Positions 3,991-64,000 of a stretch of 64,000 nt of DNA are shown here, piece after piece (within the stretch, counting starts at the first letter, position 1; every line of letters begins with the position of its first letter). The notes under the pieces are model-generated. The model searched no databases, was not told the DNA's origin, and saw only the letters and a list, made by a program, of their open reading frames with translations. The translations under genes and the position numbers were made by a program. The stretch spans positions 18,675,704 through 18,739,703 of the forward strand of contig OX419343.1 of NCBI GenBank assembly GCA_948470475.1, read 5' to 3'. Origin of the DNA: Galaxea fascicularis (taxonomy: Eukaryota; Cnidaria; Anthozoa; Scleractinia; Euphylliidae).

Positions 3991-3995
3991 AAGGC

Positions 3996-8320: not shown

Positions 8321-8395
8321 AACTCCGATCCAACATTACATTGCAGTAATTTGATTACATTCCATAAGTCACGACGCGCACTATACTCCGCCAGA

Positions 8396-39387: not shown

Positions 39388-40898
39388 AAACACTGGAAAC
39401 GTGCTCAACTTTTTGTCTTTTAGGCATCTCGCTAAATGTGGACGAGTGTCAAACGTTACATGCTTAGGATCTGTTCCAAAAACAAGAGAGACAGCAAAGG
39501 CAATGGCAAAAAGACCACAGTCACTATCATTAGTCTGCTGCTGAACTGGAACAAATTGCAGTTCAACCAAACCTCCACCTAGCAAGTCATTTGTTTGCTC
39601 CTCGATCTCTTGACTTATGACATCGTGAAATTAACTGTCATAAAGGTGTACCTTCCCAGGCAAACATCCTACAGAACTGATACAGACCCAGTGATCACTG
39701 CCTGTATGGAGAATTTGGATAAATTCACCTGAAACTACATCAAAATTCTGTACACGTTCAAGAGTTGGATGCTGTAGGCCTTCAAGTAATGGGTTAACTT
39801 CTTGCATTAACACTTGTCCTGCTTGAACAATGTCACAATTAAGCCACCCAGATGAATTATTGATAATATCATAGTCTGAATCTTCTAGGGCTGCTAGGGC
39901 ACCAAATTTGTTCACAGTACCTGTGGTTTCCATAGTGATGTAAATTTCATCCTCACTGGCACTGCTGGAATCACCTGATACTGTGGCAGTTGTTCCCACT
40001 TGAGTTACTAGGGATAAACAACTGGCAGAAGAAGTAGAAGTGGTAAGTTTAACAGACTTTACATTTGTTTTGTTTTTTTCCTGCAAGCCTCGCATTGCCA
40101 TGTTGTCTTGGAATTGTTTGGCATTCTTTTCAGCCCCAAACAACTCAAATGAAAAAACGTTCCATTTCCACAAGCTATACCATGACACTCTAGTAGTCTG
40201 TCAGCTGGGGTTGCCTTAGCATTACAAATGCAAATGTTGCTACACAGCATGGCAGCCTGGATCACTGCAGATGCTTTCTTGCATTTGGTGGAGCTTCTGC
40301 TATGCTTAAACTGTGGAAGCCTACTGGAGTGTGGGCAGTACCATGTTTTCAGTGTTGGCACCTCACTCAGAGATAAACATGTGACATGAAACTTTCCATA
40401 AGGGCAGACTACATTACTACACGAGACCACGTGATCACTGTGCTGGCCTCTGCAAAAACAAATGCCATTGTCACTGGGAACACTTGCATGGACATCACAC
40501 CTAGCATACCACCTTCCCAGGATCTCTGGCAGAATGCAAGTTCTCCAAAAAGCTTCAAGTTTTGGTAAGACTGTGTTTGAGTGCTGCTGGTCAGGATAAA
40601 TTCTCTCAATTAATAAATGTGCATTTTTATCAGAGTCAATTGCACAGACAACAAAGTCTCTGGCAGGGTAAACAACTGCTGCTGTACCTGACAGTAGTAG
40701 TTGTGTTTCCTTTTTAACATAAAGGTGCTATCAACCTTTTCCAAACAACAGCTCTTCTCCTGAACATATTTCTCAAAGTCACCATTTTGGATACTAATGG
40801 GGCATTTGACTTCTCCACATCCCAACCCACAACAATCACAAGACATTAAGAAGTCTGAAGTGGCATGAAGAAATGGTTACTCCATGTTAATAAACAGC
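39388..40898 (-). pseudogene. YqaJ-PHD-Ulp1 gene, C-terminal half
   Basis: On the minus strand the half starts with CGLFINME and [15 protein letters not shown], then the YqaJ nuclease block [20 protein letters not shown] and [15 protein letters not shown] linker (WRTCILPEILGRWYA) leads to a PHD-like finger CICNAKATPADRLLECHGIA and HLSCLGLKRMP. Then comes a Ulp1/C48 cysteine protease with HTGSDHWVCISS (His), VHLYDS (Asp) and QTNDSDCGLFAIAFA (Cys). Lesions are a TAA for Tyr near 40,880, frameshifts near 40,670 and 40,075 (T-rich run), and a TAA in place of Leu after VHLYDS near 39,630. The architecture suggests DNA-end processing plus SUMO/ubiquitin-like deconjugation, but the function of this multi-copy family is unknown. 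The N-terminal half lies 18 kb away beyond the CACTA element. Confidence 0.8.
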
Positions 40899-40901
40899 CC
40901 A
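40899..40901. repeat. Target-site duplication CCA, left of the CACTA element
   Basis: CCA directly precedes the terminal CACTGCG. The same CCA follows the other end at 59,247-59,249. Joining the flanks with a single CCA restores THCGLFIN in the minus-strand YqaJ frame. Confidence 0.85.
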
Positions 40902-41460
40902 CACTGCGCAAAAAGGCACATGTTCTCGACCGACTTTGCCCGAATACAGATAGGCACACGTGGAGTGTACAAGAATATCCTGAAGTATTCAAGCACGCAT
41001 GACGTGACGTACACCTAGAATATTCTACTTAGAATCCGGACTGTTTTTCCGAATTCAAATAGAATACTTTGGAATACTAAGAATGATTCGAAATGGCATA
41101 CCCCAACTCCTTTTCTAAAAAAAGTTCAATATTGGCCAGTCTCGAAGAATGATGATCATTAATCATTGGAACATCTTGAGCACGACAACAAATTTGCGAG
41201 TCCGCATGCAACGTGAATACAACAGTGATGAACGGTTTACCGGACTTGAACATGCCCGAATACATTGTACTAACACACATCAAGTGTTCGCCGCGTTTGC
41301 CAACACGCACCAACCCATTACTTTGTGGAACTTGGTATTCTGCGGTATTCATACTTGAACACTCTTCGTGTCCAAGAATATACGACCGCGAGTGGCAATG
41401 GTTGTATCTCGTTCCGGAAATTCAGTTTGCATATTCTTGAACACGAACGTGTTTCATGTA
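40902..41460. promoter_or_regulatory. Left terminal and subterminal repeat region of the CACTA element
   Basis: After CACTGCG come many copies of GAATA(C/T) and its complement, for example AAGAATATCC, GAAGTATTC, TAGAATATTC, TAGAATACTT and GGAATACTAAGAATG. CACTA transposases bind arrays of short subterminal motifs, so this is the likely binding region. Short open frames here (41077-41598) look like repeat products. Confidence 0.6.
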
Positions 41461-42375
41461 TTATTTGAATGTTTACGCTTTTGGGACGTTCATATGCTTT
41501 GGTCTTGTAGGATTGCCCTTTCTCATAGGGTCTGTACTCTACCTACGCGGATTACTGGAGTCTCCTTTTTGTCTAGCCTCCATAGCAGACGTTCTTAGGG
41601 CTTCGCCATGCGCTCCTTGGGGAAGGAACGCGTGATGAAGCCCTAAGAACGTCTTCGTGGACTACTTTTTTGTCTCGTGCAGTTCAATGAAGGAAGCCAT
41701 TGTAAGAATCAGCCAACAAAACTTTATTCAATAAAACTGACAATTTAGGTAGTTATACTGTATGTACAATACTAGTAAGTTGAATATCTTGATGTTATTC
41801 AATGCTACGTTTGTATGCTGGAATTCATTAGCTAACCGAACTGTTTTGAGTCCAGGTACCTTAACTGCATTTTAATGATTTGTGAGGTGCCTCAGGCATA
41901 ATTGGCTTTTTTGTAAAGGACAAAAACATGGAAATTATTATCATTACGAAAAACGCCCTTTTTAACTAATTGTAAAAAATCCCATTTGCCATTCGTTAAA
42001 AGTTTCCTCCTGGATAATTGCAAAGAGATAACAAGTCATTGTCTCTATTATTAACCTTAAAAGGAACACAATTTCTTAAAACCATCCAAGAAAGCTCCAG
42101 TACTGAATAGCAAGTCAGCTTTAGTATATCAATACATACACTAACCTTTGCATTCCAACATAAAAAATAAATGTTATTTCAATATTTACATAGCAATGAT
42201 ATTGCTATTCGTCAGCAATACAGCTGCAGTAGAAATAATTTACTTAAAAATTCTATTTAAAAAAATTGGGATGAAATCCTAATCTTGAAAGAGAAAAGAG
42301 GAAGAAATTTATTATGCAACACTATTCTCAGTATGTTGCTGAATAAACTGATTAAAAATATTGCCAGACTAAGAG
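41461..42375. other. CACTA interior without recognisable gene, one long hairpin
   Basis: Apart from the hairpin at 41,587-41,661 no feature is evident. The stretch is AT-rich and may include the 3' end of the minus-strand coiled-coil gene. Confidence 0.4.
41587..41661. repeat. Imperfect inverted repeat, about 30-bp stems
   Basis: AGACGTTCTTAGGGCTTC is mirrored by GAAGCCCTAAGAACGTCT. The inner stem has a few mismatches around GCGCTCC and GGAACGCG, with a loop of about six bases. It could be the remnant of a small foldback or MITE. Confidence 0.8.
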
Positions 42376-45300
42376 TTAATCACTTTCGGAGTCATGATTT
42401 AAATAATGGTATCTTTTTTTTCTACTCCTGGGTGGTGATGCCACAGGAGTTTCAGCCTGCACCTCCTCTTCTCTCGTCTGATCTATTCTTCTTTGTAGAC
42501 AGCTCATCAATTCATTGGCCCTTGGGGACCTCCATCTTGGTGACCTTATGATCCAATTTCCCTCTGGTCCATCTTCCTCATCACTTATAAAGTCATAGTT
42601 AAGTCCTTGCATCAACTCCTTCTCTTGCCCCCTCGCCACTTTAACTCGTGCACTGAAAAGCTGAAAGAGATTTTTAAAGAGATTTTTATTTTTAAAATCA
42701 AGCTACATACATTGTATATGCCCTGTACTACGATTTGGTTTTATCCAAAAGTCTTAATTCCAGTAATTAACTACTAATAACTGTAATTTGTCAATGCTTT
42801 TTACACATGCAGTGGCTGACAAAATGAAAGAAGTTCAAATCAACATACCCTTTTCCTTCTTGAACGTGCTTTGTTGACCTGTTTTGTCTGTTTTGTTTTT
42901 TGTCGGTTTTCAGGAAGTGACTGCAGGTAAAGCTTTCTTTTTGTTTCGTAGTACCTAACAATACACCTGCAAAATAAAAGTGGAAAGAGTGTTATAATAG
43001 TTATAACATCAGACCAGCTTCATTCTTTATAATTTCAGGCAGCTGCCTATATGTATAGCTATTGACATTTTTTGAGTATCTGCAAAGAACTTAAGGTTAA
43101 CGGATACCTTCGAGTTGTCTCATGTGCAAGTGATGTGTGTTTCAGTTAACCTGTAGAAACCTAAAACCCTATATCAAATTATTATCTCACGTGATAGACC
43201 AAGAGCTTTTAAAAAAAAATAGCATTGTCAACTTATTATTTTTTAATGTGAGGACCCGAATCACCTTTCCAAAGCTAAAATTCAAAGCAATTTTTGATTT
43301 TCATTAATTGATTTGTTCTATTCTCTAGGAAGTCAAAGCACTTATAAACATTTCGATTTTTATGAAAAGTTACAGAAAAATTTGTTAATACTGTAGGGCT
43401 AAAAATTTGGATAGTCATACAAAAATTCATTAATTCAAGTATAAAGCATATCTTTAAGTTGGAAATATTTAGAACGAACAATAAAAAAATCTCTGAGGGT
43501 GTTATCCATGTAGGCCTTCAGTCTAGGCAAGTCCCTTCTTCATCTGCTTAATTCTCTAATTTATACAAAGCCATATTCAATAAATTGCAAATGGACCTTA
43601 TTCACACAGAAGCCATATTGTCCTGAGAGACTGACCTCACAGTGAAAAATTTGGGAGAGAGGCTAGACAGGTAAAACAAAGCTACTTTAGTCTCTCGAGA
43701 CAAAATGGCTGCTCTGTGACAAGGGCCAATTATTGTAGCCTTAACCACGAGCCAGTCAACAATAGATACGTGGCCTCTTGCGCCCACAATATGTATGTTA
43801 TGGGAAACCCCTGAAAGTTTTGCACATTATTTTTCATGATGAGACTTACGCTTGACTGTCTTAATGGCATATCCCCTATCTTCATTAGCTATCTGCTCTT
43901 CCAGATGGTGTCGTACAGACATGTTGTGTGGTGAGAGAGCACTAGAAATTTCAAACCAATTAACAGTTATTGAATGAGGCTGAGAGTAAAACAATAATCA
44001 AGGATAAGAGTTACTATCTGTATAACTCCCTTTAATAATTTAACCCTTTCACTCCCAAGAGTGACTTTACAGATTTTACTCTAATGCCAGATGATTTTAC
44101 TCGTCAAAGGGAGACCCCTTGGGAGTGAAAGGGTTAAGGGAGATAGAAAAACAGCAGAAACTCAAGGATTTAGCAATGATTGGAAGTTTAGGGATTATTA
44201 TGTCTGAAAACTGTAAAGTGACAAGCCACCTTAAGCTACATATACGTTATATTCACAGTTCAACTATTTTTGAATAATCACAGCACAGGAAAACAAGTCA
44301 TACCTTTCCTCAGGCTTGTATTGTCTGTCTAATGACAAGTTGTTGTGAAGGAGATGTACATCTGCCTAAAGTGAACAAAGTGGGATTTTTTGTTTGTACA
44401 CTAAAATTACAACTGCACCAGTAATAATAATATTATTGATGAGGTATCAAACTACATTACAGAGCTGCAGTCATGATTCTAAGGGCCATACCCAGTAACA
44501 CCTGTCATTAAAAATAAAATTAACAACCCCAACAAACATAACAAGCAGCACACTCTGAGCAATCAAAAATTGGGTCTTCAGCTGATGAGAACTAGCACTG
44601 TTAGTCTGCCCTCTTAGCTGGAGACCTACATGTACTAGCTTGCAACATTACTATTCCATTTATCTTAGATGATACTTCGTTTCTAATCTGGTAGAGGAGT
44701 CAACTTTCATGCAATCATGAATGTCATCATCCTATGGTGTGAAAAGGTAATAAGAACAGTACCCAAAAAAGCGTTCATGGCTGGAGCAATTAAAAACAGA
44801 TGCCACAAACAGGGTTCATACACTTTTTCAGGCCAAAAATTCAAGGACTTTCCAGCACCCTACTTTGAAATTTCAAGGACCTTTTTTTTATGAGAATTTA
44901 CCTCAAACCAAGCAAAATGTTTGTCTTCAAACCTAACTCTTGAGCATGCAGAAAGTGCAAGCCTTGAGCAACACAAATTATCAACCATAGATCAGATTTA
45001 ACGCTTTGATATTTAAAAGCATTAGCAAGATTAAAAGCATTGATATTTTTCGACCTTGTTCAGTAAAAATTCAAGGACCTAAAAGCATTTTATAGCTGTT
45101 TTCTGCCATTGAAAAAAATTGTTTGAATAAATAAATTTGTCATTATATCAGCCAATCAGACTAACCTACAGTATTTGTGGTATTTTGCAATAGGAAGTCA
45201 TTCCTTCACATCCACAGCATTTTGCTTTCTTTAGTACTGACATTTCCAAGAAGAAGCTACATGTAACCAAAACAGGCATAAATAATGGCTGAGAGGTAAT

Positions 45301-48300
45301 TCTTAAAGTTATCTCGCAAGGGAGATACTCACCTTGAAATTTTCCTAAAATTCCCAAAAATTCATAGGAATTTCTGAGAATAACTTGGAATTTGTGGGAT
45401 TTTTTAAGAATAGCTTGGAATTTTTTGGAAAATCTGAGAAAAACTGGGAATTTCTCATGATTTGTAGGCCAGACAAATTTTGTTGAAATGCACGGCATGA
45501 AAATAACAAATAAAGTAATACTAATATCACATCAAACAGGTTTCAAATCAATACTTTAATTACACTGGCTTTCATGGCTGTTAAAATAAGAATAATTATC
45601 TTGTTTGATTGTTTTTTGTTTTACATCAAGGATCAAAAGTAAAACTGAAAACAGGTATGAAGGTCAAACAAAACAAAACAAAACAAAACAAATACTATAT
45701 TTCCTTGTTTAAAGAGAACTTTTTTAGATAATATTTTCTTGTTTCCAAAAAACAAGAACATTTACATGTAGAACTAAAAAAAAAAAAGGAAAAACAATAC
45801 TGAAGTCCAATGGGACTTAGCTCTGCTTTTTCAAAAATTGTCCTCGGAGCTTGCGCTGTTCCCCTCTAATAAAATTGTCCACCACTGCCCTCGTACACCC
45901 ATATCTCTTTTCCATAGCACCTAAAAATGAATAAATAAAGGTTGCAAATTAATAAGCACTTTGTTCAATGTTTTTAATTACACTTAAAGTGCAGGTAATT
46001 ATTCCTTGGTGATAAATGACCTCCTTTCAGGAATTTTTCACCTAGAAAGTATTTTTCTTTCACCTCTTATTTTGTTGTCCAAATGAACTATCAGAATGAT
46101 AGGGCTGTACTTGCTGGAACAACGGTACAACTTAAATTATTACTTTCAAACCAATCAGTTTCTCAAGACTCTACTTGCTATATATTCAGTGCAAAAGGGT
46201 TTTTTCCTTGGATTCACCTCTCTCAAGCACGGAATCATTTTACTTCTGATTTCCAGAACATTTACACAATGTAACTTAAACCTCCAACAAACTCTAACTT
46301 ACAGTAGATCAAGTCCAGCTTCTCCCTGTCCAGAGCAATACCCTCACCACCAGATGCTGTTACTCTTCCCTTGAGGGATGATAGTCTTACTTCATCTACA
46401 GTAAACATCTTGTAAAGTAAGACTTTCAATCCCTCAAGTGGCTTAGTTGTATTCTTTATCATGGCAAGATAAGTCAACTGTAAGAAAATAAAATTCTACA
46501 TTAGCGAGTAGACCTTTAATGTCTGCTTGTTTATTTGTACACTGGTTCAATAAAAATAAGAAATTTAGTCATTTCTCATTAAGTACCTCAGGATCTCCAG
46601 TACTGGTTGCTCCATCAGCTGGAGCGCTTGAACAGTTTGGGTTGGCCTTAAGAAATAAAGAGCTCATTATTAATTTGTAAAATTGTTTTGAGAGAATATA
46701 AACCATTACTAGTTTTGATACAGTCATATGAGAGTTTGAAATAAGTAACATACTTAAACTGCCTGAATCCGGTGGGTCTAAAACACAGGTCACACTGGTT
46801 CTTGTTTTACCAACACTGGAACAACCTTAACCCCTTCCTAATGCTAACTTTAGGCCAAAGCACTACACTAAGACCATGTATTAGTAAGGGGTTAGGGTTG
46901 TTCCAGTATTGGTAAAGCAATGACCTCTGTTTTAGACCCGCCAGCCTGAATCAATCACATTAGCCAGCTGCAATATTAGACTTAACTCAAGTAACTTGCA
47001 TGTGGTGTGACTTGTTTTTTATGAGAGTTTCTTAAAAACTTACTGCATAAGTCCTGGTCTTTTTTCAAGAGAGCCCTTCTAAAGCATCTTAATTCAAAGT
47101 AGTTGCAGGGCTTGAAGTTAAAAGTTGAATCCAGTACCTTTCACACTTTGCTACCACAGGGCCCTGATTTACCTTTTTTCAGCGCTTTGAATGGATAGCA
47201 AGCCATTGGCAAATGCATGAAGACAGAGTCACTAGCCCAAAAGGAAACTCAAATTGCTTCCAACTAAACTGGTCAGACCAGTTGTCATGAGTGGCAATAT
47301 TAGCAACTTTATTACCCCTTTCTTGAATGAATAATTAATCATATTTTTGTCCTTACCTTCAACTCCCTCACAATTCTTTTGAGGTGTTTCACTTCTGATC
47401 GAAGCCCCTCAACTTCTCCCTTCAATTCTTCAAACTGTTGAGTAAAATGAGTAGTGAATGAGGTCCATTCACTATTCACTTCACTTGATGGTAATGGTCC
47501 CTGGTCATGCCTCATGTCAAAGTCCTGTAGCTCCAAATCATCCTCCAGCAGTGAACTGTAGCTGGGGGAATGGTCATAGTGTGAAAGAGATGAATTTGTG
47601 TAATGGGTTCGTGGCTGTAGTGGAATGTGAAAAGGTGATGTGGTAAAGTGTTTTGCATAGGTGACATACGTTGTGTATTTAATGGTGTGATGGGATGGCG
47701 ACTGGCAGTGGGTGTTACTGCAGATGGATTATAAGTGGGTGGTATGGATTGTGTTGGTGTAATGATATGAGGGTTGGAAGTTGGAGTGTTTGGAATGAGA
47801 GATGGCTTGTGTATGGATGAGGGTGGTTGTGATGGTGTGAAAGTGTGAGGGATGGAAGTGATTGGGTGTGTGGCGTGAGGATCATGTGACAAAGATTGTG
47901 TTGATACAGTAGCTGATGGTGATGGTGACTGTTTATGGGGGTTGTTTGTGGTAGTGTTGGGTGTGACAGGAAGTGCTTGTGGCTTTGACTGTACTGATGT
48001 ATAGGTAGTGTCATCAGGAATTATAACTGTATTTGCAGGTGTTCTGCACTGTTGCAAAATGCTGTTTATCCTCTCTTGCTGTACAGATTGTTGCAACTTT
48101 GAAAAGAAAATAGTGAATTTTCTTTAATGAAAAGTAGTTCATATTAATCATAACACATATTATATGCAAAATATATTCTGGTATTAAAAGTTCACTACTT
48201 GGATACATGATACATGCAAAACATATGCTGGTATAAAAAGTTCACCCAAAAATAGATGGGAATGCACAGTTGAGACAGAGATGAGGGGCTTCGGCCACAG

Positions 48301-51300
48301 CTGGAGCTTCATCCAAAAGCTGGCTGGGGACAGACAGCTGTGGTCTGTGAGTTCCTTTGTTGCTGCCCTGTGTGCCAGTGCAAGATAGGCAGTAATTGAG
48401 TGAGTGAATGAAAAGTTCACAATTTGTAAAATAAGGGAAATTGACACCACTAAAATTAGGCACTGAAAGGTAATGAGTCTTTATCAATAGCATTAAATGC
48501 CCAGCCAATTACCTTTTTTCTTTCCAGCTCATTTTCTTTGTCTTCGTTGTCACCTACAAAAAGAAAATTTGAAAAATAGTCAGTCAAGTGACAAACAGTC
48601 AAAGGTGGCCAAAAAAATGGGTAGTACAGTGTTGAAACTCACTCACTCACCAATGCAAGTGTGAAAAGAGGTGCACGAGTACTGATCAGTTGATCACTGT
48701 GACTGTGGATTGCAACATGAAAATGATTGATGATTAAGTGTTACCTTTCGCTTTCTTGTCATTTGTCTTTCTTTTTTTCTTAGGGGGTTGCTGATCAGCT
48801 GAAAAATAAATCCCATTAACTACATATCAATCATACACCTTCGTAGTCTTTTGCAATAAGAACAAAACTCACAACAATGTGCACATAATATTATTTCTTC
48901 AATGGTTATTAAAATCCAAGACATAACACCACACGGTAAAATGAAATCTAAACCAAATCACTTAGTTATTTAACAAAAAGAAGCCTAAGCCATGTATAAG
49001 TATTATACTGTTATAAAACACACCAGGGAAATGTAGAAAGCGCCTGCGGCTCGTGTTTTCTACATTTCTTGAGTGTTCACAAATGTCCAGAGTGTTTTAT
49101 TACAGTGTAATACATGGCTGTGACTTCTTCATTTGCTTTATGATGTAGAGGTAAGGTGGTGAAAAACAATAAAACACTCTGATAAAACATGGATTTTAAC
49201 CAATCAGAGCAAGAGCAGGGTCCTATCTATATTTTTAAAAGTAAAAACAACAGCATGAGGAATAATGGGTAAAAAACTTACCGTTATCACCCTTCCCTTG
49301 ATTTCTGGAAGTCTCTGCCTCCTCTCTGTCCTCACTATTATCTACATTAGGTCAATTTGAGACAAGCCAAGTGGTTAGCTTTCAATACAATTAAGGAACA
49401 CAAAAATAAAAGAACTTGTAATACAGTTAATGCTCAAGGTAACCAACCAAACGTGCAGCAGTCAAACCCAACTGAACAACATTTTATTGTTCAAGTGATT
49501 TTAGGTTTTATTTCATTTGATTGAATGAGTATACTGAAATTAATATGAGATTTTTTAAATACACTTGGATTGAATCAAAATAGTATTTTTGTGAAACTGG
49601 TTTACATTCTATGCTTTTCTTTTTTACCTTGCTCCCATACATTTTCCCTCACTTTCTGGGATGGGTTCCATTTTCTTTTACTGCTTTTATCACCTGGGAA
49701 AATAATAAAATTGCTTCTGATTATAAATGTAGTTGTATGTTGCATTATTTTATATTTACAACAAGTGAGTCTATAAACATCAAAAATTAAAACTTTACCG
49801 TTAACATCACCGTGAGCGTCAGCAACTTTCTTAACCAAATTTGCCTCAAACTCCAGAGCCTTAGCCTTTGTTCCTTAAACAATAAAGAATAAAAAGACTT
49901 AAACCTTTTTCCTGACCCTTTTCAAAGAATGATAATGCAGCATGGAGAGTTAAGCAACTTTAAGTGGATAAAATTTCTCAATTAGCTTTTAAACTCCCGC
50001 CAATTGTTGCCCAGTTAATTTGAAGAAAGGCCGGTTAAGTTTTTTGGAATGTGGACTTTGGTCTGTGAGCCGATTTAAACGGCCATCTAAATTAAAGCTC
50101 ACTCTCGGTCTCGGTTTGCAAGTTCTAAGTTTAAGAAAATTCGACCTGGAGTATAAAGAGAATATTTAAAAAGGTAATCGAAACAAAATTGTTTCTTTTA
50201 GTTAATAACAGAGAAAGGCTAAACGGACTTGTGCTGCGTACAAAGGTCTGATTTCTCATCGTAATCCGGGCCGTAATGGCCTGCCGCATTTACGTGCATG
50301 TGATGCTTTCAATGTTTTGAATTTCAGCGCCTGGATAAGTGCATCTTAAAGCCTGAACCATTAAAGAGTTAAAGGTACATGTACTACTTAGCACTCACCG
50401 CATACTTTCAAAATTTCCGCCTTGTAAATGGCAATCTTTCCTTTACTAATACCCGCCGATACATCTACCGTACTGCCTTCTTTCAGTTCGACGTTCTCGC
50501 CAACAACTTTTTTTTCATTAACGACACTTACGCTATTTTCGTTCACCCATTGAACAACAATGAAAACCATCTTAAGTTAATTGCAGATTGAACGCGAAGA
50601 AAGAAAGTTTAAGTGCAATCGAATATTCCACGCACAAGCGACCAACCGAGAAGATTGAAAAAAGGCGCCAAAGTCACGTGAAATCATGCTTCGTGTGATT
50701 GGTTCACATGAGAGAATCCGCTGGATTAACCGATTGCAGTATCAATAAATCAATGACGGGTGGCATCCTGAACGATCCATGTCTCGAGGATGGATCCAAG
50801 TTGTGTTGGAAATAGTGCGGGAAACCCACTCTATACAGAGATAAATCACGAGAATGGAACATCGTTTAGATGCTCGATTTGTTGCCGATCGTTGTCGAGG
50901 AAACAAAGGATCGAAAGGCACTTAAGTTCTGTCCACGGCAAAGGTAAGAAATTGATCCATATTTTCGAACTGTTCTTGCATTCAAGAGGTTTTAAAATTA
51001 TTTTCATTAAGTCTTTATTTAATCTCTTTGTTCTCTAATAGTGGAATATAGCAAACGAAAGTATAAGAAATACCTTGATGTTCCCAGTGTTCCAGTACCA
51101 AAGTCGACCAAATATGACCTCACGAAAAATTCAAACTTGTCTTCACCATCCAACTCATCTTCTTCGTTGACACTTCAGTCTTACTTTTTTGCTCAACAAG
51201 AAATCGAAAGGGAACAAGATCATTGGACGTCATGTGAATATGAAGGCACATTACAGGAAATAGAGAACGCTTATTCGGAGTCCCAAACCAGCTTGGAGAA

Positions 51301-54300
51301 AATCGAGAGCACGGGCACTGTAAATGAAAATGAAGCCGAAACACTACCTTCTTGTGAAGCATTCACATGTTGTTCAGGAGACACTGACAGCGAGTGTGGT
51401 GAAATTTCGTCCGACAGTGACGCTGATTCAGTAGCTTCTGGGTTTTTGTCAGAGTCTGGGGGGGGGGGACTCAGATACCGATTGCCAAGATTCAGTCGAT
51501 TTGCCTGATGATGAAGCACAGAATGACAGCCTCCCACGAAAATCATTTTCAGCCCAAGAAGAAGCCTGTATGTCTATTCTTGCATTAATTGCAAGACACT
51601 GCATCACGATAGAGGCTGCAAAAGATACATGTATCATTGATTTGTTGAAATTGATCTGCCCAGCAAACGAGCTATTGCAATCTTTAACTTACTCAAATGT
51701 ACAGGAAGTGTGTGGAAATTGTACTGTTTTCACCTATGACATTTGTGAAAATTGTCTCGGTCTGTTTCCAACAAACGTGGAGGATCAAGTGGTCTGTTCA
51801 ATGCCAGGCTGCAATGGGTATGTACATATCAGCACTTTGTGGGCATATATAATTTGGAATACATCTGCTCAATAAATTACTGTTGTGGTGCGTCATTAAC
51901 CATTATTCATGCAAGAGTCTTTAACTGTACCCAAATTCACAATTAGCCCATCAGAAGTCTAGTGTTGACTGCATGCACTGGTATCCTATGATATCAAGTC
52001 ACTGACCTGATATTGCACAATACCAAGGATTTTGGGCTGAATTTGGGTATTGTAAATAACTAATTGTACCTTATTGTTATGCTTAGGTGGCTTATCAGAA
52101 TTATTTTGTCTTGGCATAGAGTAGTTTTGGCTCCACTGCATCTCTCCAAAATATGAACCATGGCTCCACAAAACTCACCTGATGTGCCACTGAAACATAC
52201 CAAAAAGGTACAATTACACATAAATTTGAAATCACTGGCTTGTCATTACATGATTTCATGGATTTTGTGCAATGACCAGGTGCCACAACTCAAATTCACA
52301 GTTGTACTTCTTTTTAACTTTGTTGATTAAAAAGTTTTCTTTTCCATCGGCCTCATGAGTCTTGTCAAAGCTGTAGTAAAGGTTGCAAAGAACTATTTGG
52401 TCATTTGAAGAACTTGTAAATGTCATAGTTTGTATTTTTGTGTGTACATGATTTCCTTAAGATGAGTTACACACAGTCACTCAAGATGAAAGCTAAATCA
52501 AAGGGACAAATGTCAGCCTGGTTTCTGAAGGCATGTGAAAAATCTAAAACAAACGCAAAACATGTTGCTCTGTTCCTTAGGAGTCCTTAATTAATATAAA
52601 TGTAATCACCATTGTAGGAAACGGAAGTTGTGGTCTCAATGTGCACAACGCGGGTGCCCACCTGGTTGACTATGTTGAAGGCTGGGGGCCACTTTGGGCT
52701 TGGTCCACCTTTGGCTTCGAAGATATGAATGGGACACTCATGGATTTTTGCCACGGCACTGGAAATGTTTGTAGACAGGTAAAAAATGCCATTCATATTC
52801 TTTAGTCAAATTAAGCTTGATAGGTCAATCTTTTGACCTTTTTTGTTTTAATAATAAAAATTTTTATCACAGAGTGACATACAGTGAAAAATTACCCAGT
52901 AAAGGAGCGACTTTTTTTCTAAATTATTGACTGACACTGTATTGTTTGTAATCTCAGCTGATTTGGATGTTGCATGCCCAGAGCCGTCTTATGAGTGATG
53001 TTGAGCTAATCACAGCTGGAGCAACCAAGGAGTTTATAACAAGAATGCTGATCACAAAAAGAGGGTATATCAACCATGATTGGGTTTTAATTGTATAGCT
53101 CTCTAGTTTTTAAACAAGCAATTAGAAATAATGATATGATATTTTACTTGCAGAAGCATTTAATAATGGTCTCTATGCTGAATTAAAGTCTCTACATAAG
53201 CCATAGTAGCTTAGCAGTTTGGTTCTTAACTTCCATTTCTGCAACAATGAAGGGACTTGAGTATTGTTTGTCTCAATTGGATGGGAAGCTAGTCCATCAC
53301 GGGCTACTTCCAAACTTATGACAGGTTTCCATGACAATTTGAAAGTATAGAAATATGCTAATTGGTGAAAAGAGGCAGTGTGAAATCATGTCTTGTCAAA
53401 TAACTAATTTGCGAGGGGCTCAGAATGCTAAACAGTTAGGCCTCCACTTCTCTGGAGTATATTCCTGGTGACTGCTTTACAGCAAGGTAGATAATGGCTT
53501 AATCTACATCTGAACTCTTCATTGGTATTATGACATGATTAATGTATTAATTAATTTGTTTACAGGTTGAAGAACCTTAAAGGTGCTAAGGATTGTCAGG
53601 TTGCTGGAGGAGCAAAAAAGCTGGAAGGGCTTCCAGTACATTTGGTGAATGAAGTCCTTTGCAAGTGTGGACCTGACAACTTCAACGTCTTGAGAATTGT
53701 GAGGAATGGGCAGGTTTTTTTCAGTCGGGAATACACTCGAATGATCAAGAGAAATGCCTCTGTGGTCTTGTTGTCAAATGGGAGAGTGGGAGACAAATTT
53801 CTTTATTTGGAACAAGGAGTCAGGAAGAATACTTGTGGTATATAAAGTAATAGAGCCCAACCTGGACAACCCATTCTTCTTTGATGATGCTGGTTGTCAC
53901 ATTCTACGAATGAAGTCTCAAAGGTACTCCATTAACCTCAATACTTATTTAACAGAGTCACCCAAGTAATAATAGCAATAAATAAAGTTACTTCTATTAA
54001 CAATAAACAGATATTTCAGTTGAAGACATAACTCTAAAAAAAAGTCTTTAAAACTATATAATTATATACGAGCTTGGACATAATAATTATATAAACTGTG
54101 AAACAAATTATTACCAACCAATATTCAGAAAGAGGATAAATTTAGTATATTAAAGTGTTTGTTGAAAACTCAATATTTTGGGCTTCCTTTTACTCCATCA
54201 TGAATTATTTTAAATTGTAATTTTGAATATTATTGTTTAAATGTTGTATTTTTATGTTTTATCTTCATTCTTATGTACGTGCAATATGCTTTTGATCATT

Positions 54301-55973
54301 GCTTTATGAAATTAGTGCTCTATTCACTGTATTAAAAAATATTTTGTGTATTTATATTGTATTTATTATTCATGATCAAGGGTTGTCTAATGTCATGTAT
54401 AATAATTTTATGATCTTCTAGCAATGAAACTGAACTTCAACTGGCAGAAGTTGCTGAAATTAAAGAAAAGGTGTTCTTTTTGGAAGGGAACTCTGACCAG
54501 CCATGCCTTGTACGCCTGCCAAATTTCAATGGAGTGTGTGGCTAAAGCAATTGGAGACATTACAAGCATAAAAAATATTAGGATGGAGTACAATGTAGTC
54601 TGAATAGTAAAATCCCAGCACAACAAAGGGGGTATTTACACCTGAAAAATTCAAGTTTCACTTAGGTGTTGAAGTTGTTAAAATAAACACAATTTAATTT
54701 TGTTATAGCTTATACTACATCAGTATACCCCACAACTTTTGATGTCAAAATATTGCACTAACAGTTAGTGCCTAAATGTGTTATCAACCTTGTCATACTA
54801 TTCTTCTTCTTTGAATTTTTAAAAAATGTACAAAAAATCAAGTGTTCACAGTTTAGTGTCCTCACTATATTTACATCATAGTTCTTGAATTACATTGGTT
54901 ATACTTTTAGTTTGGAGGATTGCTGGGCTATGTTTGGGGTAATATACTTAGTAAATTTACGTTAAGACTTTAGTAGTAAGTGTACCAGGCCATTCTATTA
55001 ATTTTTTCAGGCAATTAATCTCTCTGTCAGTAACAAAATTCTGATTCTCATAGATTCCCAAGAATTCCAAGTCCTGTCTTCAAGCTCGGAAGCCTTCAGA
55101 TTGAGCATTCTCAGAAATTCTCAGAAATTCCCAACAATTCCTAGAAATTCCCAGTAATTCTAAGTAGCATTTTTACAATTCCCAGATATTCCAAATAATT
55201 CCAAGGTTGTGCATTTGCTCTAATTTGCATGTCTTGGAAATTTTTGGAATTCTTAGGAATTCCAAGTTCACTGGGAATTTAGTTCGCAAGGGTTTGTGCC
55301 TTTCAACATCTACAGATGAGTTTATTGAATTGGAAGCAAACCCAGACATCTCCAAAATGACAGAAATAATCGTTTCAGGACGTCAAGAATGAAAGACAGC
55401 CACTTGAAAAATTATCTCCTCAAGAACTGGATGTAAAGCTAAGAAACTATACCACAGCCAATTTTTTCAGCTAGCTGTAGGAAAAAACAATAGAGATAAA
55501 TATGAGTAAAACTCTTCAAGGATTTACAACTTGAGTGCTACCTGAAAAACTGTGAATATAGCAAATCTAAAACCAAAACAAGGTGTGTTTAGGGAACGAA
55601 TTGCTCTAGTGTGCACTTACCGAAACTTCTGGCGGAATTTTTGATCCATCTTCAACCACTTTGCGATCATGCATCACTTCAATTTTTTCAAGAAGAGATT
55701 TCTCATTAGCTTTAAGGTCTTGCACCTCATCTTCCAAATCTTCCATTGCAGTTGTCAGTTTTTTTAGCATTTCCTCTTGAGTACTCATTTTATTGGACAG
55801 TGCGTTTATTGCATCAAATATCTTTCCTACTTCAGATGATGATATGACAATATTTGCAGCTCTGTGAGGGGAGTCTCGCTCCTACATGTAGATGTACATG
55901 AACTCGCTGAGCCTCTGTCCCTTCCAGAGCCAGATCTTCTATTGTTTCCAAAAAAAGAACCTGCTTGGGCCAT
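42376..55973 (-). CDS. Coiled-coil protein gene (C14orf93-like C-terminus), exons flanking the BEN gene
   Basis: Exons on the minus strand: 55973-55621, 44365-44304, 43941-43850, 42966-42849 and 42660-42376. Exon 1 starts MAQAGSFFGNNRRSGS, has a frame break near 55,870, and continues as a coiled coil (LKKLTTAMEDLEDEVQDLKA). Exon 2 reads ADVHLLHNNLSLDRQYKPEE and exon 3 HNMSVRHHLEEQIANEDRGY. Exon 4 is basic (YYETKRKLYLQSLPENRQK). Exon 5 has ISDEEDGPEGNWIIRSPRWR and RANELMSCLQRRI and ends YHYLNHDSESD. The GPEGxWxxRxPRWRS block reminds me of vertebrate C14orf93. Junctions 1-2, 2-3 and 4-5 keep phase. Junction 3-4 is off by one base. If exon 1 truly belongs here, its 11-kb intron contains the whole BEN gene. 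Exons 2-5 alone are safer than the joined model. Confidence 0.5.
44040..44137. mobile_element. TTAA-flanked MITE, 98 bp (copy 2)
   Basis: TTAACCCTTTCACTCCCAAG at the left is mirrored exactly by CTTGGGAGTGAAAGGGTTAA at the right. It is the same family as 35,422-35,531, in inverted orientation, and is nested in an intron inside the CACTA element. Confidence 0.88.
45330..45480. repeat. Array of GGAATT-type short repeats (left)
   Basis: Repeated words such as AAAATTCCCAAAAATTCATA, GGAATTTCTGAGAATAACTT and GGAATTTTTTGGAAAATCTG follow each other over 150 bp. A matching array lies at 55,050-55,290, also inside the CACTA element. Confidence 0.6.
45660..45692. repeat. CAAAA microsatellite
   Basis: Five to six tandem copies of AAACA lie beyond the 3' end of the BEN gene. 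Confidence 0.8.
45817..50570 (-). CDS. BEN-domain protein gene, ten exons, CACTA cargo
   Basis: Minus-strand exons: 50570-50399, 49873-49799, 49693-49628, 49341-49282, 48798-48746, 48553-48513, 48096-47357, 46646-46587, 46477-46303 and 45920-45817. All introns are GT-AG and phases match. Exon 1 starts MVFIVVQWVNENSVSV, with the same overall layout as the genes at 1,460 and 8,396. Exon 5 has a PPKKKRK nuclear signal. Exon 7 is Thr/Pro/Ser-rich and then forms a coiled coil (FEELKGEVEGLRSEVKHLKR). Exons 9-10 make the BEN domain (LKVLLYKMFTVDEVRLSSLK, then ALDREKLDLIY and YGCTRAVVDNFIRGEQRKLR) and end KKQS. BEN domains bind DNA or chromatin partners. The only lesion is a one-base frame change in exon 7 between about 47,690 and 47,590, which may be an unrecognised intron or an error. 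Otherwise the gene looks intact, unlike most of the window. Confidence 0.75.
46771..46942. mobile_element. MITE, about 172 bp, with 9-bp flanking duplication
   Basis: GGTGGGTCTAAAACACAGGT is mirrored by ACCTCTGTTTTAGACCCGCC with a couple of mismatches. GCCTGAATC occurs directly outside both ends (46761-46769 and 46944-46952). A second inner inverted pair is AACACTGGAACAACCTTAAC with GTTAGGGTTGTTCCAGTATT. A 9-bp duplication fits a Mutator-like origin. It lies in an intron of the BEN gene. Confidence 0.72.
50571..50789. promoter_or_regulatory. Shared divergent promoter of the BEN and transposase genes
   Basis: Only 219 bp separate the BEN gene's ATG (minus strand) from the transposase ATG (plus strand). 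The region has an inverted CCAAT box (TGATTGGTTC near 50,696) and an AGTCACGTGA E-box-like word near 50,672. No TATA box is obvious, in contrast to the two BEN genes at the left of the window. Shared regulation is inferred from spacing. Confidence 0.5.
50790..54545 (+). pseudogene. CACTA transposase gene lacking its catalytic middle
   Basis: Exons: 50790-50943, 51042-51817, 52618-52778, 52958-53064, 53566-53932 and 54422-54545. Exon 1 starts MDPSCVGNSAGN and has a C2H2 finger (FRCSICCRSLSRKQRIERHL). Exon 2 is acidic, then shows Cys pairs (VCGNCTVF and DICENCLGLFP). Exon 3 has the DUF4218 signature CGLNVHNAGAHLVDYVEGWG, then PLWAWSTFGFEDMNGTLMDF. Exons 4-6 are its C-terminal part, ending NGVCG. 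Between exons 2 and 3 the Transposase_21 core (catalytic Asp residues) is missing, and the phase does not match there, which suggests deletion of exons. An 11-G run at 51458-51468 shifts the frame in exon 2, and another shift occurs near 53,790. The gene would mobilise the element in an intact relative. Confidence 0.68.
55050..55290. repeat. Array of GGAATT-type short repeats (right)
   Basis: Repeated AAATTCYCAGAAATTCCCAA, TTCCTAGAAATTCCCAGTAA and TTCTTAGGAATTCCAAG words. It ends with GGGAATTTAGTTCGCAAGGG, whose TCGCAAGGG also occurs next to the left array at 45,330. Confidence 0.6.
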
Positions 55974-56289
55974 CTTTGGACTGTGGATGCCACGGATGGG
56001 CAAAACTGAAGAAGATTGAAACAGACTGAAATTAGGGTTTTTGAAAACTGTTCAGCTTAACCGTTTTAGAGAGTTGATCTCTGCTGTTTGCAACTTCAAA
56101 AATAATGCTCAGGAGACATAATTATTTGTTTGTCTAATCTCTGATTTTGTCATTTACATGTAACTTCTTTGCTTACTTCAAGTTCCATAGTGATTGAGGG
56201 CGAGTAATTGGGAAAATTAAACAAAATGAACTGGAATGCCGTGACATAGCTCCTTTAACTTGAAAAAGCAATTCTAAATTCTAAACAAT

Positions 56290-57764
56290 ATGGCAATTCA
56301 AAAACAAGCAGGAGATCGATATGATGATTATCAGGACATCTGTAAGTCTTATTCAGCTCGATCAATTCAACTGTCGACGATGAATTTGGAAGAATTCATC
56401 GCAGATTTAATAGAAAGATTAAAGGAGTTTAACTCACCTCTTTCGACGCCAGAAACACCTTATACTTTTTATACAGTTTACTCTTTTTGGTGTTTCTCCT
56501 TCAAGAGATATAATGGTATACTGGGGTCATATCACAAGAACAACCATAACATTGGTAAGTTGGTACAGTGTCTTACACTGTTTAGAGAGATTTGAATTTA
56601 GCTCGTGCCTTGCTTGAATTAAATTTTTCATTGCTAAGAAAATCCCAGGAAGTATTCGTATTGTTGTGGTTCACTTCTATGCTTGGTTTAAATGTTATTT
56701 TCCTTTGTGTCAAACTAATTATCATACAATTTCTAAAAATTATAATTATCAATATACTGTAATTATTTATAACAATAATAATCATCATTGTAGTGGTTTG
56801 CTTCTATGCTTGGTGCAAAATATTAATGTTATTTTCCTTTTTGTCAAACTCGTTATCATACATAACCATACACAAAAGACAACAGCAAAGAAAACCTAAA
56901 ATGACTGAACCAAGAGTAATAGTGAACACTGAACAAGATAAGCAAACACAGCTGGTGCATTGTGTGCTTCTTATCAGACACCTTAAGTGAGCATACACGG
57001 TGTAAGTTGTAATGATACCAATAAGTTCCAATGTATTTCTGATACATGTAGGTACACAGCTGATGCGGCGATTTCTTCGAGATAATGAGCTAAGGCTCAT
57101 CACCTTCCCAGAAGAATTCAGCGACTTTCAGACGCTGCTTTTGGGTGATCAGAGAGGCACTGTGGGTGAATTACTGAACAGGGGACCTGCTATGAACAGA
57201 TCAAGCCTTTTGAGTGGGCATCAAACTACAGAGGATCAAAGCAAGATAGTTGTTCCCTTCCCCCCTGTTAAAAGAATTGCCTTAGATGAAGATGATACTT
57301 CAGAGATGAAGAAGATGTATCAGATTTTGTTTCCTGATTGTGAGATTGTTAGTGTTCAAAGGCTTTGTGACAGTTTTTCAAGAGTTCAAATCAGTGGCAC
57401 TATATACAGATGTTCTTGCAATTATGGTGTTTTCGCCGAGTGGTTTTATGGGGAACATAGACCAGGAAGAGTACATAGATTCCTATGTAATGATGTGATC
57501 TTAAAACAGGGCTCGAGAAAAAGAAGGAAGGTCACATATATCCTAGCTGAAGTTGGTTGGTTCAAGAAACATCCAGAAAAGGACTGGTATCCTGACCCAC
57601 TTGAAGTGTGGTGTACTGACTTTGAAAACTATTCTGAAATGTCTTTTATTCCAGTGATGAGAATTCACAGCCAGTGTTTAACAGTGCAGAGAAAGGTTAA
57701 GTTTGGCTATGGAAAGGAAAAAGTGACTGTCACTATTCCATTAATTGGGCAATTTAGCACCTAA
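56290..57764 (+). pseudogene. Second DUF4218-type transposase, 3' part
   Basis: Two exons, 56290-56554 and 57052-57764, join in phase to give HNIGTQLMRRFLRDNELRLI. Exon 1 has a short unrelated-looking start (MAIQKQAGDRYDDYQ) and then the family block YSFWCFSFKRYNGILGSYHK. Exon 2 runs through FPDCEIVSVQRLCDSFSRVQ, then AEVGWFKKHPEKDWYPDPLE and VWCTDFENYSEMSFIPVMRI, to the stop. This is the C-terminal half of a Transposase_21/DUF4218 protein and differs from the gene just upstream. No zinc finger or catalytic region is found before it. It may be a remnant of another element nested here, or a second transposase of the same element that lost its 5' exons. The visible frame is open. Confidence 0.62.
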
Positions 57765-59246
57765 ACATTTTTATTTTGTTATTAAGAAAATTCATGTGAT
57801 TTCTTTTCTTGTAAGCTGTACATGCATTGTATCTCATGAAGTTTCAAATAGCCACAAATATTCCATACATTGCACTTTCTTTTATTTAAGTGATCCTTTT
57901 AAGCAAGCCTTAAAGTTGTATAACTTATGTTTGTTCTTACTCATTAAAAATGAGCTTTTCCTAATATATTTCTCTTATGGGCTGTCGCATCAGTTACAAT
58001 GTTACCATATTCTATTTAAGGTAAACAAAATAAAACAACAGAAGTAGCAAAAATGACTCAACCAGTTTAAGTTGATGGCAAAATAATAATGAAAACAATG
58101 TGAAATGAAGTATCTGGGAGGAATGAAACAACTAATTGCCAGTGCCCCAAGTCGTTTTAATGTCACAATAATGCTTTGTGCCATAGAGCTAACTATAGAG
58201 TCCAAACCAGCTTTAGTGACGTGTCTCCTTCATGTGACCCAGTGGGCTCTTAACTAGCTCCGCTGCCCCTGATGGAATCACACATTTGCTGCAAATAAGC
58301 TGGCTACATCTAATGACCCAGTGACCTGACTGGTAAAAGGTCGCACAAACTAACTGGCTTAAATGTCAATAAACCCAACTCACAAGAGAAAATCCCTTAA
58401 ATCAATTCAAGAAATTTAGATAATGTTTCAGCGACTGGGGTGAAATCTTACTTATAGTAAAAGGGCATTTACATTTCATGATGATTTAAGTTTCCTTTAA
58501 GTTATCTTAAACCTATTTTTATAATATTTAAGCCTTTTTTAAGCAGTCTAAAAATATACAAGTATATCAAATAACTTTAAAGATTTAACCATGGTTTAAG
58601 TGATCCTAAAGTCTGCTAAATCAACTGAGAGATTCAGGCTTATTTTGCGATGCTTCAACCACAGCTTAAACTCGCTCAGGAATTTAAAGTTTAAGTTGAC
58701 CTTTTTCTAAGACTTGTCAATAAATTACGGTGCGCAAGCTCTTTACGTTACTAGTGTAGTAAAAGTAGGTAATTATCGTAAAGACAGTTTGCGTTTCCGT
58801 TAAAATGAGAAAAATCTCCCATAGGCACTCTACGCTTCCGTTGATTTGTGTAAAGTTTCTTAAAGGCATCATCGACTCGTTAAACGCGTGAAAATGAAGT
58901 TACAGCCTAACTTTGCACTATAATACTTCACACAGACACTGACTGAGTATATTTCGCTCAGCGCTTCTCTATACAACCACCCCACTTGATAAACGGAAGT
59001 TTTCAATCTTTTTCATAATTATGGAAGAACTGTTACCAACAATAACTGGCTGACGACATTTGTTGAAGTGTGCGTTCTGGGAAATCTACGAATGACGCTC
59101 AACAAAGGACGTTCGGGTGTATTCGAGCTGAATATTTCAGTATACTTCACGTGAGGTGTGCGCCTTGAATACCTCAGGATTATACGGAGTCATGATCAGG
59201 TATGCTAGGCTCGGATATTTCCGAATATTTTCATTTTCACGCAGTG
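57765..59246. promoter_or_regulatory. Right flank and subterminal region of the CACTA element
   Basis: No gene is seen. Between 58,480 and 58,690 many TTTAAG/CTTAAA words form a loose array. From 59,090 to the end, GTATTCGAGC, GAATATTTCAG, GAATACCTC and GAATATTTTC repeats mirror the left subterminal region, together with CACGTGAGGTGTGCGCC, which resembles the inverse of GGCACACGTGGAGTG at 40,952. Confidence 0.55.
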
Positions 59247-59249
59247 CCA

Positions 59250-60675
59250 CAGTGAGTTAGTCGAAAGTTGACATGGCTGTTTTTCATATGCGTTTCATAT
59301 ACTTTTATAGCATATTCTTCATATTTGCATCCATGTTTGATTGTCTTACTGTCAACTTTGTACAGGTGTGGATAACAAACAGACTTAATCAATGACTGGG
59401 AAGGTTGTGCTACATTGCTATGATACACAGCACCACACACAGACGCTCCAATTCTTTCTGCTTGATGCCTAAAAAATCCTGGGCCTTTGGCTTGATCTCT
59501 TGTGTCCTATTCGACTATTTTATTGCCCTCATCTGACATGTTAATCTTGACTTCCTTACACTTCTGTAACAATTCTGGATACTGAAGATCTAGATTGCTA
59601 AGATCATAAAGATCTGACAAAACTGGCACATCTCGACTTTTAGCTACAAACTGTTCACCATATGGGTCAATTAAACTGAGCACTACAGCCTTTGTTTCAC
59701 AATGATTAAGAACTTCGTAAAATTTCTCCATCTCTGTTGAAGCCAGCTGTGAAGGAATGGCAGTTTGTGATTTACAGCCTTCACCTTCATGAGGAGTTAA
59801 TCTAATTTTATTGTTAAGGTTTTCTTTAAGCTTTTTGGCAGAAGCAAAATCAATGTCTCTAACTCTCTCATACGAAACTTCGTTCACATAAGTTGGGAGC
59901 AGCCATGAGCATTTTACTTGTGTGCATGCCATCTTTCCATTGATGTGTGCCCAGCATTCGATGTAAATTATGGCACTGGCGATATGCGAGCAAGATTCGG
60001 CGAGTCCAGCTTTACAGCCTGAACAGTAAGCAGAAAGTATCATTCCTTCGGTCTCAGTTATAATCCACACATTCACAAGAGGGTCATTCATTCGTTATGA
60101 GTGTCGAACTTTAGCCACAACAACATACTTTCCGGAAATTACCTTTCCTCTTACCGATGCCACAAACCTGGACATAACTTGATTATATGCGTCAAGACTC
60201 TTGTAATTCTTGACTGCTTGTGCATGTAGTAACTTGTCTGCAGAACAAGGTAGCCAAATAAATCGGACTGCTCCATTGGTGGTAAACATTCCGAATTGAA
60301 TTGCTCACATGGGATTTTCACAGGGTCAATTCCAACTACTGCTATCTTCTGAAGGTATCGCAACTTTACATGGCTTTCCAGGGATGATGTGTACTCAGAA
60401 AGGATAGGAATCTTCTGGTAAGTTTCTCTATTTCGTCTCTCTCATTTTCCTGGGATACATCCATGTTGAACCCACAAAACAGCCCAAAGAACGCAAAAAG
60501 TATATAGATACGGCTTACCATTACCATAAATTTCACACTTTGAGGGGCACAAAGATGGCGGATGCCCATATTTGGAAAGGGCTGTGATGTCATGCGAAAA
60601 CCCAGAATTACCTGAGGAAAAGTTTACGCAAAACTTTCCCTGCAATGATGAACATTGTTGTGGCCTTGCCGCCAT
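59250..60675 (-). pseudogene. SWIM-YqaJ-PHD-Ulp1 gene, N-terminal half
   Basis: From the ATG at 60675 (MAARPQQCSSLQGKFC), after a probable intron, the minus strand reads IPILSEYTSSLESHVKLRYL and IAVVGIDPVKIPCEQF. KNYKSLDAYNQVMSRF and a SWIM-type zinc site (ILSAYCSGCKAGLAESCSHI) follow. Lower down comes the start of the YqaJ nuclease (CGAVYHSNVAQPSQSLIKSV, then KHGCKYEEYAIKVYE). It ends at THCG, where the CACTA element begins. Lesions are a frameshift near 60,222 and a TAA for Gln before RMNDPLVN near 60,090. Order, strand and frame match the C-terminal half at 40,898-39,388, so both halves were one gene. Confidence 0.8.
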
Positions 60676-62725: not shown

Positions 62726-64000
62726 ATGAAACTTTTGACATCTGGTGATATCGAGTTAAATCCAGGCCCTGAACAAAATTTAAACAGTCAAACTATATTG
62801 CCAGTTGGTTCCACTATGTTGTTAAACTTGTGATTACGTCAGTTAGGATTGAGACCTGTGGATGTTGGTGGTGAAGGCGACTGTTTTTTCCGAGCAGTTT
62901 CTCATCAGTTATATGGTGATCCCAATCATCACTTACTCATTAGACAAGCTGGTGTTCAATACCTTAGCAATAACCCTGAACGTTTTATTGAAAGCAATAC
63001 TGAGAATTCATGGAATGAATATACATGTATTAATAATATGTCAATGCAAGGTACATGGTGCGATGCACTGATTGTACAAGCAGTTGCAGACTGTCAAAAT
63101 GTAGCAATTCATATTATAGAATCTCATGAAAATTTTGCTGGGGAAACTTTGATAGAACCACATTATTTAACACAACATCCACCAACAACAATATATTTAG
63201 GTCATTTGGATGAATTACATTATGTATCAACAGCAGCAGTGACATGTGGTTCTTATGCAGTAGAAAATCAACACAGCACATATTCAAGGTCAACAGAACA
63301 AGGTGTTCTTTTTGAACAACCACAGAAAAGCAGTCCAAAAAGAAAACGTGATGCTTATGAGGACAAAGAGAAAAAAGATAGAAAATTTGACATCAAAGTT
63401 TCATGACAGTGTGTCCCGTGGCCCATTATATGTTTTTAGCTGTTGTCACCAGTTATGGTATAAACACAGTGTTTCTCCAGCTGATAAACTAACCAATTCA
63501 AATCCTGCTGCTGAAAGATATTTACATCAAAGAAAAAGTGTCAACAACCAAGAGTGGTTGTGTAAAACATGCTGCAATTACTTGGTAAAAAATAAAGTTC
63601 CTCCTATTGCTCTTCTAAATGGAATGCAATTTCCAGTAAAACCAGAGTTTTTTGACCTCAATGAATTGGAATGTAGACTTCTAGCTCCAAGACTCGCATT
63701 TCAAAAACTAATGCAAGCACCAAGAGGAAGACAGTTCAAAATCCATGGAAATGTTGTAAGTGTACCAGCGGAAGTCTCTGATACTGTTAATTTGTTGCCA
63801 AGGCTATCCAGTGAAACTGTTACAATTAAGGTAAATTTAAAGAGAAGATTACAATATAAAAGTTCAGCATTGTCTCTTAATGTAAGACCATATAAAGTTG
63901 TCCAAGCAGACAATTGGCTTATAAGTAACAGCAGCCTGTACAGGCAGGAAGGAATAACACTGAATCAAAACTGGGGAATGCAATGTATTGACAATTGTTT
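62726..64000 (+). pseudogene. Helitron-type gene start: 2A-like peptide, OTU protease, DUF6570 (cut by window edge)
   Basis: The ORF starts MKLLTSGDIELNPGPEQN. GDIELNPGP at 62744-62770 fits the 2A consensus D(V/I)ExNPGP. An in-frame TGA at 62831-62833 is followed by LRQLGLRPVDVGGEGDCFFR and AVSHQLYG, the Asp/Cys site of an OTU cysteine protease. The matching His lies in GHLDELHYVST near 63,220. A basic PKRKRD stretch follows, with a one-base frameshift near 63,380. Then comes the region I know as DUF6570 of Helitron proteins (PPIALLNGMQFP, then LLAPRLAFQKLMQAPRGRQF and VNLKRRLQYKSSALSLNVRP), running to the window end. Rep nuclease and helicase domains would lie beyond. Two lesions suggest an inactive copy, although neither is far decayed. 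Confidence 0.75.
62744..62770 (+). other. 2A-like ribosome-skipping motif
   Basis: Residues 7-15 of the ORF are GDIELNPGP, with every conserved position of the 2A motif present. 2A motifs cause the ribosome to skip the bond between the last Gly and Pro. That would release a 14-residue leader from the OTU-containing protein. In some animal elements an N-terminal 2A acts as a signal that changes the destination of the product. Confidence 0.7.

Follow-up and report, generated by a model that had tools for sequence, protein, structure and literature searches.

The 64,000-nucleotide window analysed here is a stretch of Galaxea fascicularis DNA (assembly GCA_948470475.1, contig OX419343.1, positions 18,675,704 to 18,739,703 of the forward strand). 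It contains an insertion of 18,345 bp, at 40902-59246, that interrupts a minus-strand gene encoding a YqaJ domain; this length includes a further element nested within the insertion (see below). The 5' tip of the insertion is CACTGCG and the 3' tip is CGCAGTG, and the trinucleotide CCA is present on both sides (40899-40901 and 59247-59249). The 5' half of the YqaJ gene lies at 59250-60094 (minus strand) and the 3' half, which belongs to a YqaJ-PHD gene, at 39634-40898 (minus strand). Taken separately, the two halves match the Pfam YqaJ profile with 20.9 and 22.7 bits (profile positions 5-73 and 82-144). When they are joined with one TGG kept, the match rises to 49.7 bits over profile positions 5-144. 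A genome search with the upstream YqaJ flank identified four places including the window, and all three paralogs (C6:16733283, C9:15022464 and C9:6810060) have an uninterrupted site with a single TGG and no insert. Their identities to the window are 93%, 83% and 83% over the searched upstream piece. A stop codon also lies a few codons beyond the insertion, and the window gene, one of several copies in the genome, is therefore dead. The interrupted gene possibly belongs to another mobile element.

The ends, the CCA pair, the empty site in the paralogs and the existence of other copies ending at or near the same positions support a CACTG-ended insertion of the EnSpm/CACTA type, which split the YqaJ gene and duplicated 3 bp of the target. 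The observed/expected ratio of CpG is 0.44 within the insertion, compared with 0.76-0.84 in the flanks, as if the insertion had been methylated and had decayed.

Other copies of the outer element were identified by searching the 416.6-Mb assembly with the terminal 201 bp of either end; all numbers of places are lower bounds. The left terminus was found in at least five places including the window (96-100% identity; 96-98% for the other four) and the right terminus in at least four places including the window (95-100%; 95-97% for the other three). Sequence was retrieved for all four left-end copies outside the window and for the one right-end copy that these did not include. All four left-end copies become similar to the window at positions equivalent to 40900-40902. 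On the other side, the last matching position of the three right-end copies outside the window is 59246 (C9:11.96 Mb), 59240 (C8:19.45 Mb, where the tip is altered) and 59247 (C10:18.09 Mb). The first-pass annotation of the window had placed the two tips and the CCA pair at these positions and had the YqaJ frame restored by keeping one CCA; it also looked to an intact YqaJ site in related sequence, to further copies of the termini, and to similarity that stops at 40,902 and 59,246. Our results confirm the tips, the CCA pair and the joined gene; the intact site is seen in the paralogs, and the other copies end at or within a few bases of these two positions.

The most informative sister copy is located on C9. 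It has both outer ends, measures 6,455 bp, is flanked by GTG on both sides and contains none of the region occupied by the nested element in the window. The copy at C8:19.45 Mb also has both ends and is 13,521 bp long. It carries a different insertion of its own, of 6.8 kb, in the last transposase exon (C8:19450322-19470321, joined positions 6299-13088). The C135 copy shows only a left end, with the tip CACTACG, on a contig spanning 18,278 bp. C8:21.43 Mb and C10:18.09 Mb are single-ended fragments with 675 and 358 bp of outer-family sequence within the 20 kb fetched. A 3-bp duplication can thus be read in the window (CCA) and in the C9 copy (GTG), the remaining copies besides C8:19.45 Mb showing one end only. 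Over the outer parts, the divergence between the window and four sister copies is 2.0-4.4%, with 666 to 5,312 sites in each comparison.

Both subterminal regions contain the short motif GAATA/TATTC. There are nine occurrences in the left 400 bp (40902-41301) and four in the right 400 bp (58847-59246), against a window average of 2.5 per kb, or one per 400 bp; these are raw counts. The left end is the maximum of the window, and the right end (up to five) ties with two other spots. In the C9 copy the ends contain 10 and 5 occurrences, against an average of 1.5.

Genes of the outer element

The outer element contains a minus-strand gene of the DUF4616 (C14orf93-like) family. Exon 1 lies at 55624-55973; it was located by tblastn with residues 1-119 of P0056 and contains a frame break. 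Exons 2-5 lie within 42376-44365 (at about 44365-44304, 43941-43850, 42966-42849 and 42660-42376). The joined exons, with X at the frame breaks, match Pfam DUF4616 with 67 bits (cut-off, 27). The nearest relative is P0056 of Montipora capricornis, a C14orf93-like protein with 74% identity over 100% of the joined exons, from which we conclude that exon 1 and exons 2-5 constitute one gene. Apart from its frame breaks, the window gene lacks 43 residues in exon 5 that are present in P0056 and in the C8, C9 and C135 copies. Intron 1 measures about 11.3 kb in the window; the P0057-like relative located at C10:16.50 Mb has one of about 560 bp.

DUF4616 exons are present at four of the five outer left-end places (the window, C135, C9:11.97 Mb and C8:19.45 Mb) and missing from C8:21.43 Mb. 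They also occur on contig C137, where the gene alone was read. The C8, C9, C135 and C137 copies all have an open last exon. Three other DUF4616 loci were examined for tips, and two of them (C12 and C1:6.87 Mb) have a CACTGCG tip upstream of the last exon, in a layout unlike that of the window. Given these tips and the exons at four of five left-end places, the DUF4616 gene appears to accompany CACTG elements regularly and not to be a one-off capture. The C12 locus (position 963 of the fetched piece) and the C1:6.87 Mb locus represent a second, P0057-like DUF4616 group, and the sequence beside their tips is related to the subterminal sequence.

The outer transposase is represented in the window by a C-terminal remnant on the plus strand (56329-57764), equivalent to residues 550-875 of the 881 residues of P0020. 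The Transposase_21 stretch (P0020 residues 243-387) is missing. In the C9 copy, residues 270-875 of P0020 are covered by four stop-free aligned pieces, which match Transposase_21 with 63.0 bits (cut-off, 28.6) and DUF4218 with 29.7 bits (cut-off, 27). Transposase genes of the DUF4218 type had been predicted inside the insertion. The C9 copy shows that the kind of gene was named correctly; Pfam does not call DUF4218 on the remnants in the window itself.

The inner element and its relatives

The intron between exons 1 and 2 of the DUF4616 gene contains a second element, at 45323-55292, belonging to a Transposase_21 family with CCC tips. It was delimited by comparison with a copy at C4:15.20 Mb, which was reached by a search with P0062 and matches the window throughout 45323-55294. 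The two differ by 100 mismatches in 9,949 aligned sites (1.0%), and the C4 copy has three extra stretches of roughly 0.15-0.5 kb that are absent from the window. The C4 element measures 11,246 bp, with CCCTTGCG at both tips and TT on both sides. A copy on C2 measures 2,477 bp and likewise has CCCTTGCG at both tips, with AA on both sides. The right CCCTTGCG tip is intact in the window and is followed by TT (55293-55294). The left tip is rearranged: the 25 bp at 45298-45322 reproduce the family's left tip exactly but in the opposite orientation, and the array of about 200 bp that follows the left tip in the C4 copy is missing. Inside the ends are subterminal arrays of the GGAATTCCTA type, consisting on the left (45331-45469) of GGAATT units of about 10 bp; the array on the right (55045-55267) is inverted relative to the left one and is also found in relatives. 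A 9-bp direct repeat flanking the inner region, TCGCAAGGG, was considered as a target duplication and rejected, as it is part of the tip of the element and is inverted on the left. CACT-type ends were looked for in the inner element and not found; its CCC tips became visible in the C4 copy. The lower divergence of the inner element (1.0%, compared with 2.0-4.4% for the outer parts) is in keeping with its later arrival, as the nesting implies.

The inner element contains two divergent genes. The first, on the minus strand (45817-50570), encodes a coiled-coil protein in 10 exons with GT-AG borders throughout and one frame break in exon 7; it is 89% identical to P0062 of M. capricornis. It has been labelled BEN after the UniProt name of a relative, P0065 (BEN domain-containing). 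A 93% match to exon 7 is found at C7:7393810-7394301, inside an open frame of 3,514 amino acids, with one stop within the match.

The second gene, on the plus strand (50790-54545), encodes the inner transposase. N- and C-terminal exons are kept, with two frame breaks; they match P0001 residues 45-237 and 634-884, and the catalytic middle (residues 238-633) is absent. The C4 copy lacks the same residues. We considered whether the catalytic middle might merely be intronic and rejected this, as residues 238-633 have no counterpart in the window or in the C4 copy and are present in a relative at C10:17.38 Mb. This relative has the right-hand array, the first exon of the coiled-coil gene and divergent transposase exons covering P0001 residues 134-884 in twelve pieces without stops; its Transposase_21 match scores 41.1 bits. 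Four loci (the window, C4, C2 and C10) thus have the coiled-coil gene and the inner transposase gene in divergent arrangement.

One transposon or two

The insertion had been described as a single 18.3-kb CACTA transposon, with the BEN-labelled gene and a second gene as cargo. Our results replace this apparent gene-carrying giant with a nested pair that has boundaries, sister copies and an empty site: very probably, two DNA transposons are present, related to each other but of different families, of which one lies within the other, and their extra genes recur with their respective families. The two insertions, their order and gene content, the outer duplication and the duplications of the inner family's other copies are read directly. 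No second copy of the 18.3-kb composite occurs among the copies fetched. A single transposon carrying two captured host genes would account for the one CACTG end pair and the one CCA pair that enclose everything, and for the introns in both extra genes. We consider it very improbable. The C9 sister has both outer ends without the inner region, the inner stretch of about 10 kb has copies at C4 and C2 with tips and duplications of their own, and each extra gene recurs with its transposase family, the BEN-labelled gene with the inner one and DUF4616 at most of the outer left-end places. It is scarcely credible, finally, that the two outer ends stem from two different damaged elements, brought together by chance or by an assembly join. 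Single-ended fragments of the family do exist (C8:21.43 Mb and C10:18.09 Mb), but this explanation has to contend with identical CCA on both sides, with the exact empty site in three of three paralogs, and with the C9 copy, in which these two ends are again paired, between GTG and GTG.

Several observations weigh against two families with recurring companion genes. The outer copy at C8:19.45 Mb has no matching 3-bp flank (TTA and AAT), and rearrangement of the inner left tip makes the inner element's own duplication in the window unreadable on both sides. Among the outer copies found, none is complete, with DUF4616 gene and transposase both intact, and five more distant DUF4616 loci show no transposase match in the 3.4 kb read at each. 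Within the 10 kb fetched, the C10:17.38 Mb relative of the inner element lacks an exact CCCTTGCG tip, and the C2 copy retains only 5' pieces of the genes, its transposase side being known by 71% DNA similarity alone. The BEN label finds no Pfam match in the window protein (E up to 10, with filters that drop most weak matches) or in P0063-P0065 (E up to 0.1). Structure prediction gave an unusable model of the BEN-labelled protein (mean predicted local distance difference test score, pLDDT, 41). The DUF4616 model is of moderate quality (mean pLDDT 69) and has no match in the PDB at E up to 0.001, the best E being 1.1. Pfam, NCBIfam and PDB sequence and structure searches recognised no DNA-binding fold in either extra protein; the NCBIfam and PDB sequence searches produced no convincing match, and there was no BEN match among PDB sequences for the BEN-labelled protein.

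Assuming two nested elements, the most likely course of events is cut-and-paste insertion, nested insertion and then decay. Elements of this family transpose by cut-and-paste, using a DDE transposase. A CACTG-ended EnSpm/CACTA element would have entered a copy of the YqaJ gene, duplicating CCA, and an element of another Transposase_21 family, whose other copies end in CCCTTGCG and have 2-bp duplications, would have entered intron 1 of the DUF4616 gene. Both probably moved by means of transposase that complete relatives provided in trans; for the inner family, this is suggested by the C4 copy sharing the loss of the catalytic part. The window copy is dead, because both of its transposases lack the catalytic part; the inner transposase and the two second genes also contain frame breaks.

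The outer family resembles the EnSpm/CACTA elements (maize En/Spm and the animal and fungal EnSpm elements) in its CAC..GTG ends and 3-bp duplications, which are consistent with EnSpm (PMC12730594), in its short subterminal repeats, and in the Transposase_21 and DUF4218 matches of the C9 copy, the former domain being absent from the window copy. It differs in having the tip CACTG instead of CACTA. The inner family resembles the TRC elements (SmTRC1 of Schistosoma and its relatives in Aedes and Tribolium), which have CCC ends and 2-bp duplications (PMC1636069): the C4 and C2 copies have a CCC tip at each end and a 2-bp duplication, and the C10 relative has a Transposase_21 match. Unlike the TRC elements described in that source, the inner family has a separate divergent coiled-coil gene and GGAATT arrays inside the ends, and at 11.2 kb (C4) it is longer than the 9.2-kb Aedes element (PMC1636069). 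The size class of the outer insertion is shared by soybean Tgmt*, a 20.5-kb CACTA element that is also inserted in a gene (PMC2613891), and by the red-alga EnSpm elements of 16-20 kb with 4-5 open reading frames (PMC6431247). These are described in their sources as single elements, however, whereas the size of the coral insertion results from nesting.

What the two extra proteins do can be approached by analogy. Maize Spm requires both TNPA and TNPD (PMC1636069). The DUF4616 and coiled-coil proteins may act like plant TNPA, each for its own branch: they would bind the short subterminal repeats, GAATA-type in the outer family and GGAATTCCTA-type arrays in the inner one, and would help to bring the ends together or to overcome silencing. 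The same source describes TNPA as alternatively spliced, unlike the outer second protein, which has a separate gene on the opposite strand. On a broader view, two CACTA branches would each have recruited an opposite-strand helper reading the subterminal repeats (DUF4616 for CACTG elements, the coiled-coil protein for CCC elements), and vertebrate C14orf93 would be a domesticated descendant; we offer this tentatively and think it rather unlikely. The human protein (RTFC) shares with the outer second gene the match to Pfam DUF4616, but the coral gene lies within a multi-copy transposon family.

It is also possible, although we are inclined to doubt it, that the elements are nested as described and that an ancestor of the outer family took up DUF4616 from the host, the gene being a passenger without a role in transposition. 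C14orf93 is a named vertebrate gene, described for its function in the thyroid (PMC5322522), and the divergent coral locus at C1:20.12 Mb (39%) is a candidate for the host ortholog; the lack of a transposase match at the five more distant DUF4616 loci points in the same direction. A passenger should be lost faster than the retention at four of five left-end places suggests, however, and the CACTGCG tips at C12 and C1:6.87 Mb and the open last exons in four copies also speak against it. In a limited literature search we found no paper that connects DUF4616/C14orf93 with a transposon or that reports a BEN-labelled gene as part of a CACTA element; PMC5704228 mentions 'CACTA' and 'BEN domain' in unrelated places. 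Whatever their role, genes annotated as ordinary in corals (C14orf93-like; myosin-M heavy chain-like/BEN) travel with transposase families. If the helper role were true, animal CACTA elements would have a testable TNPA counterpart, and the origin of C14orf93 would become a concrete question.

Other features of the window

Pfam searches with frame translations of 50700-58200 (plus strand) and 41200-51000 (minus strand) yielded nothing useful because the exons are short, and scans of viral contigs with P0001 and P0063 found no relatives. Outside the insertion, a remnant of another, more distant transposase of the Transposase_21 type lies at 21180-22200 (plus strand). By eye, a reading frame at 33911-35151 (minus strand) resembles a Helitron-type helicase, and another at 62834-63998 (plus strand) resembles an OTU plus Helitron-N-terminal protein. 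Tandem arrays with a GAACGGAT-like core and periods such as 43 and 106 bp are located at 7510-7772, 61001-61254 and 62412-62590, and a 390-bp unit is repeated in four tandem copies with a 95% match at 1730-3270. A small palindromic repeat with TTAACCCTTTCACTCCCAAG arms occurs twice in the window, at 44036-44137 and 35422-35535.

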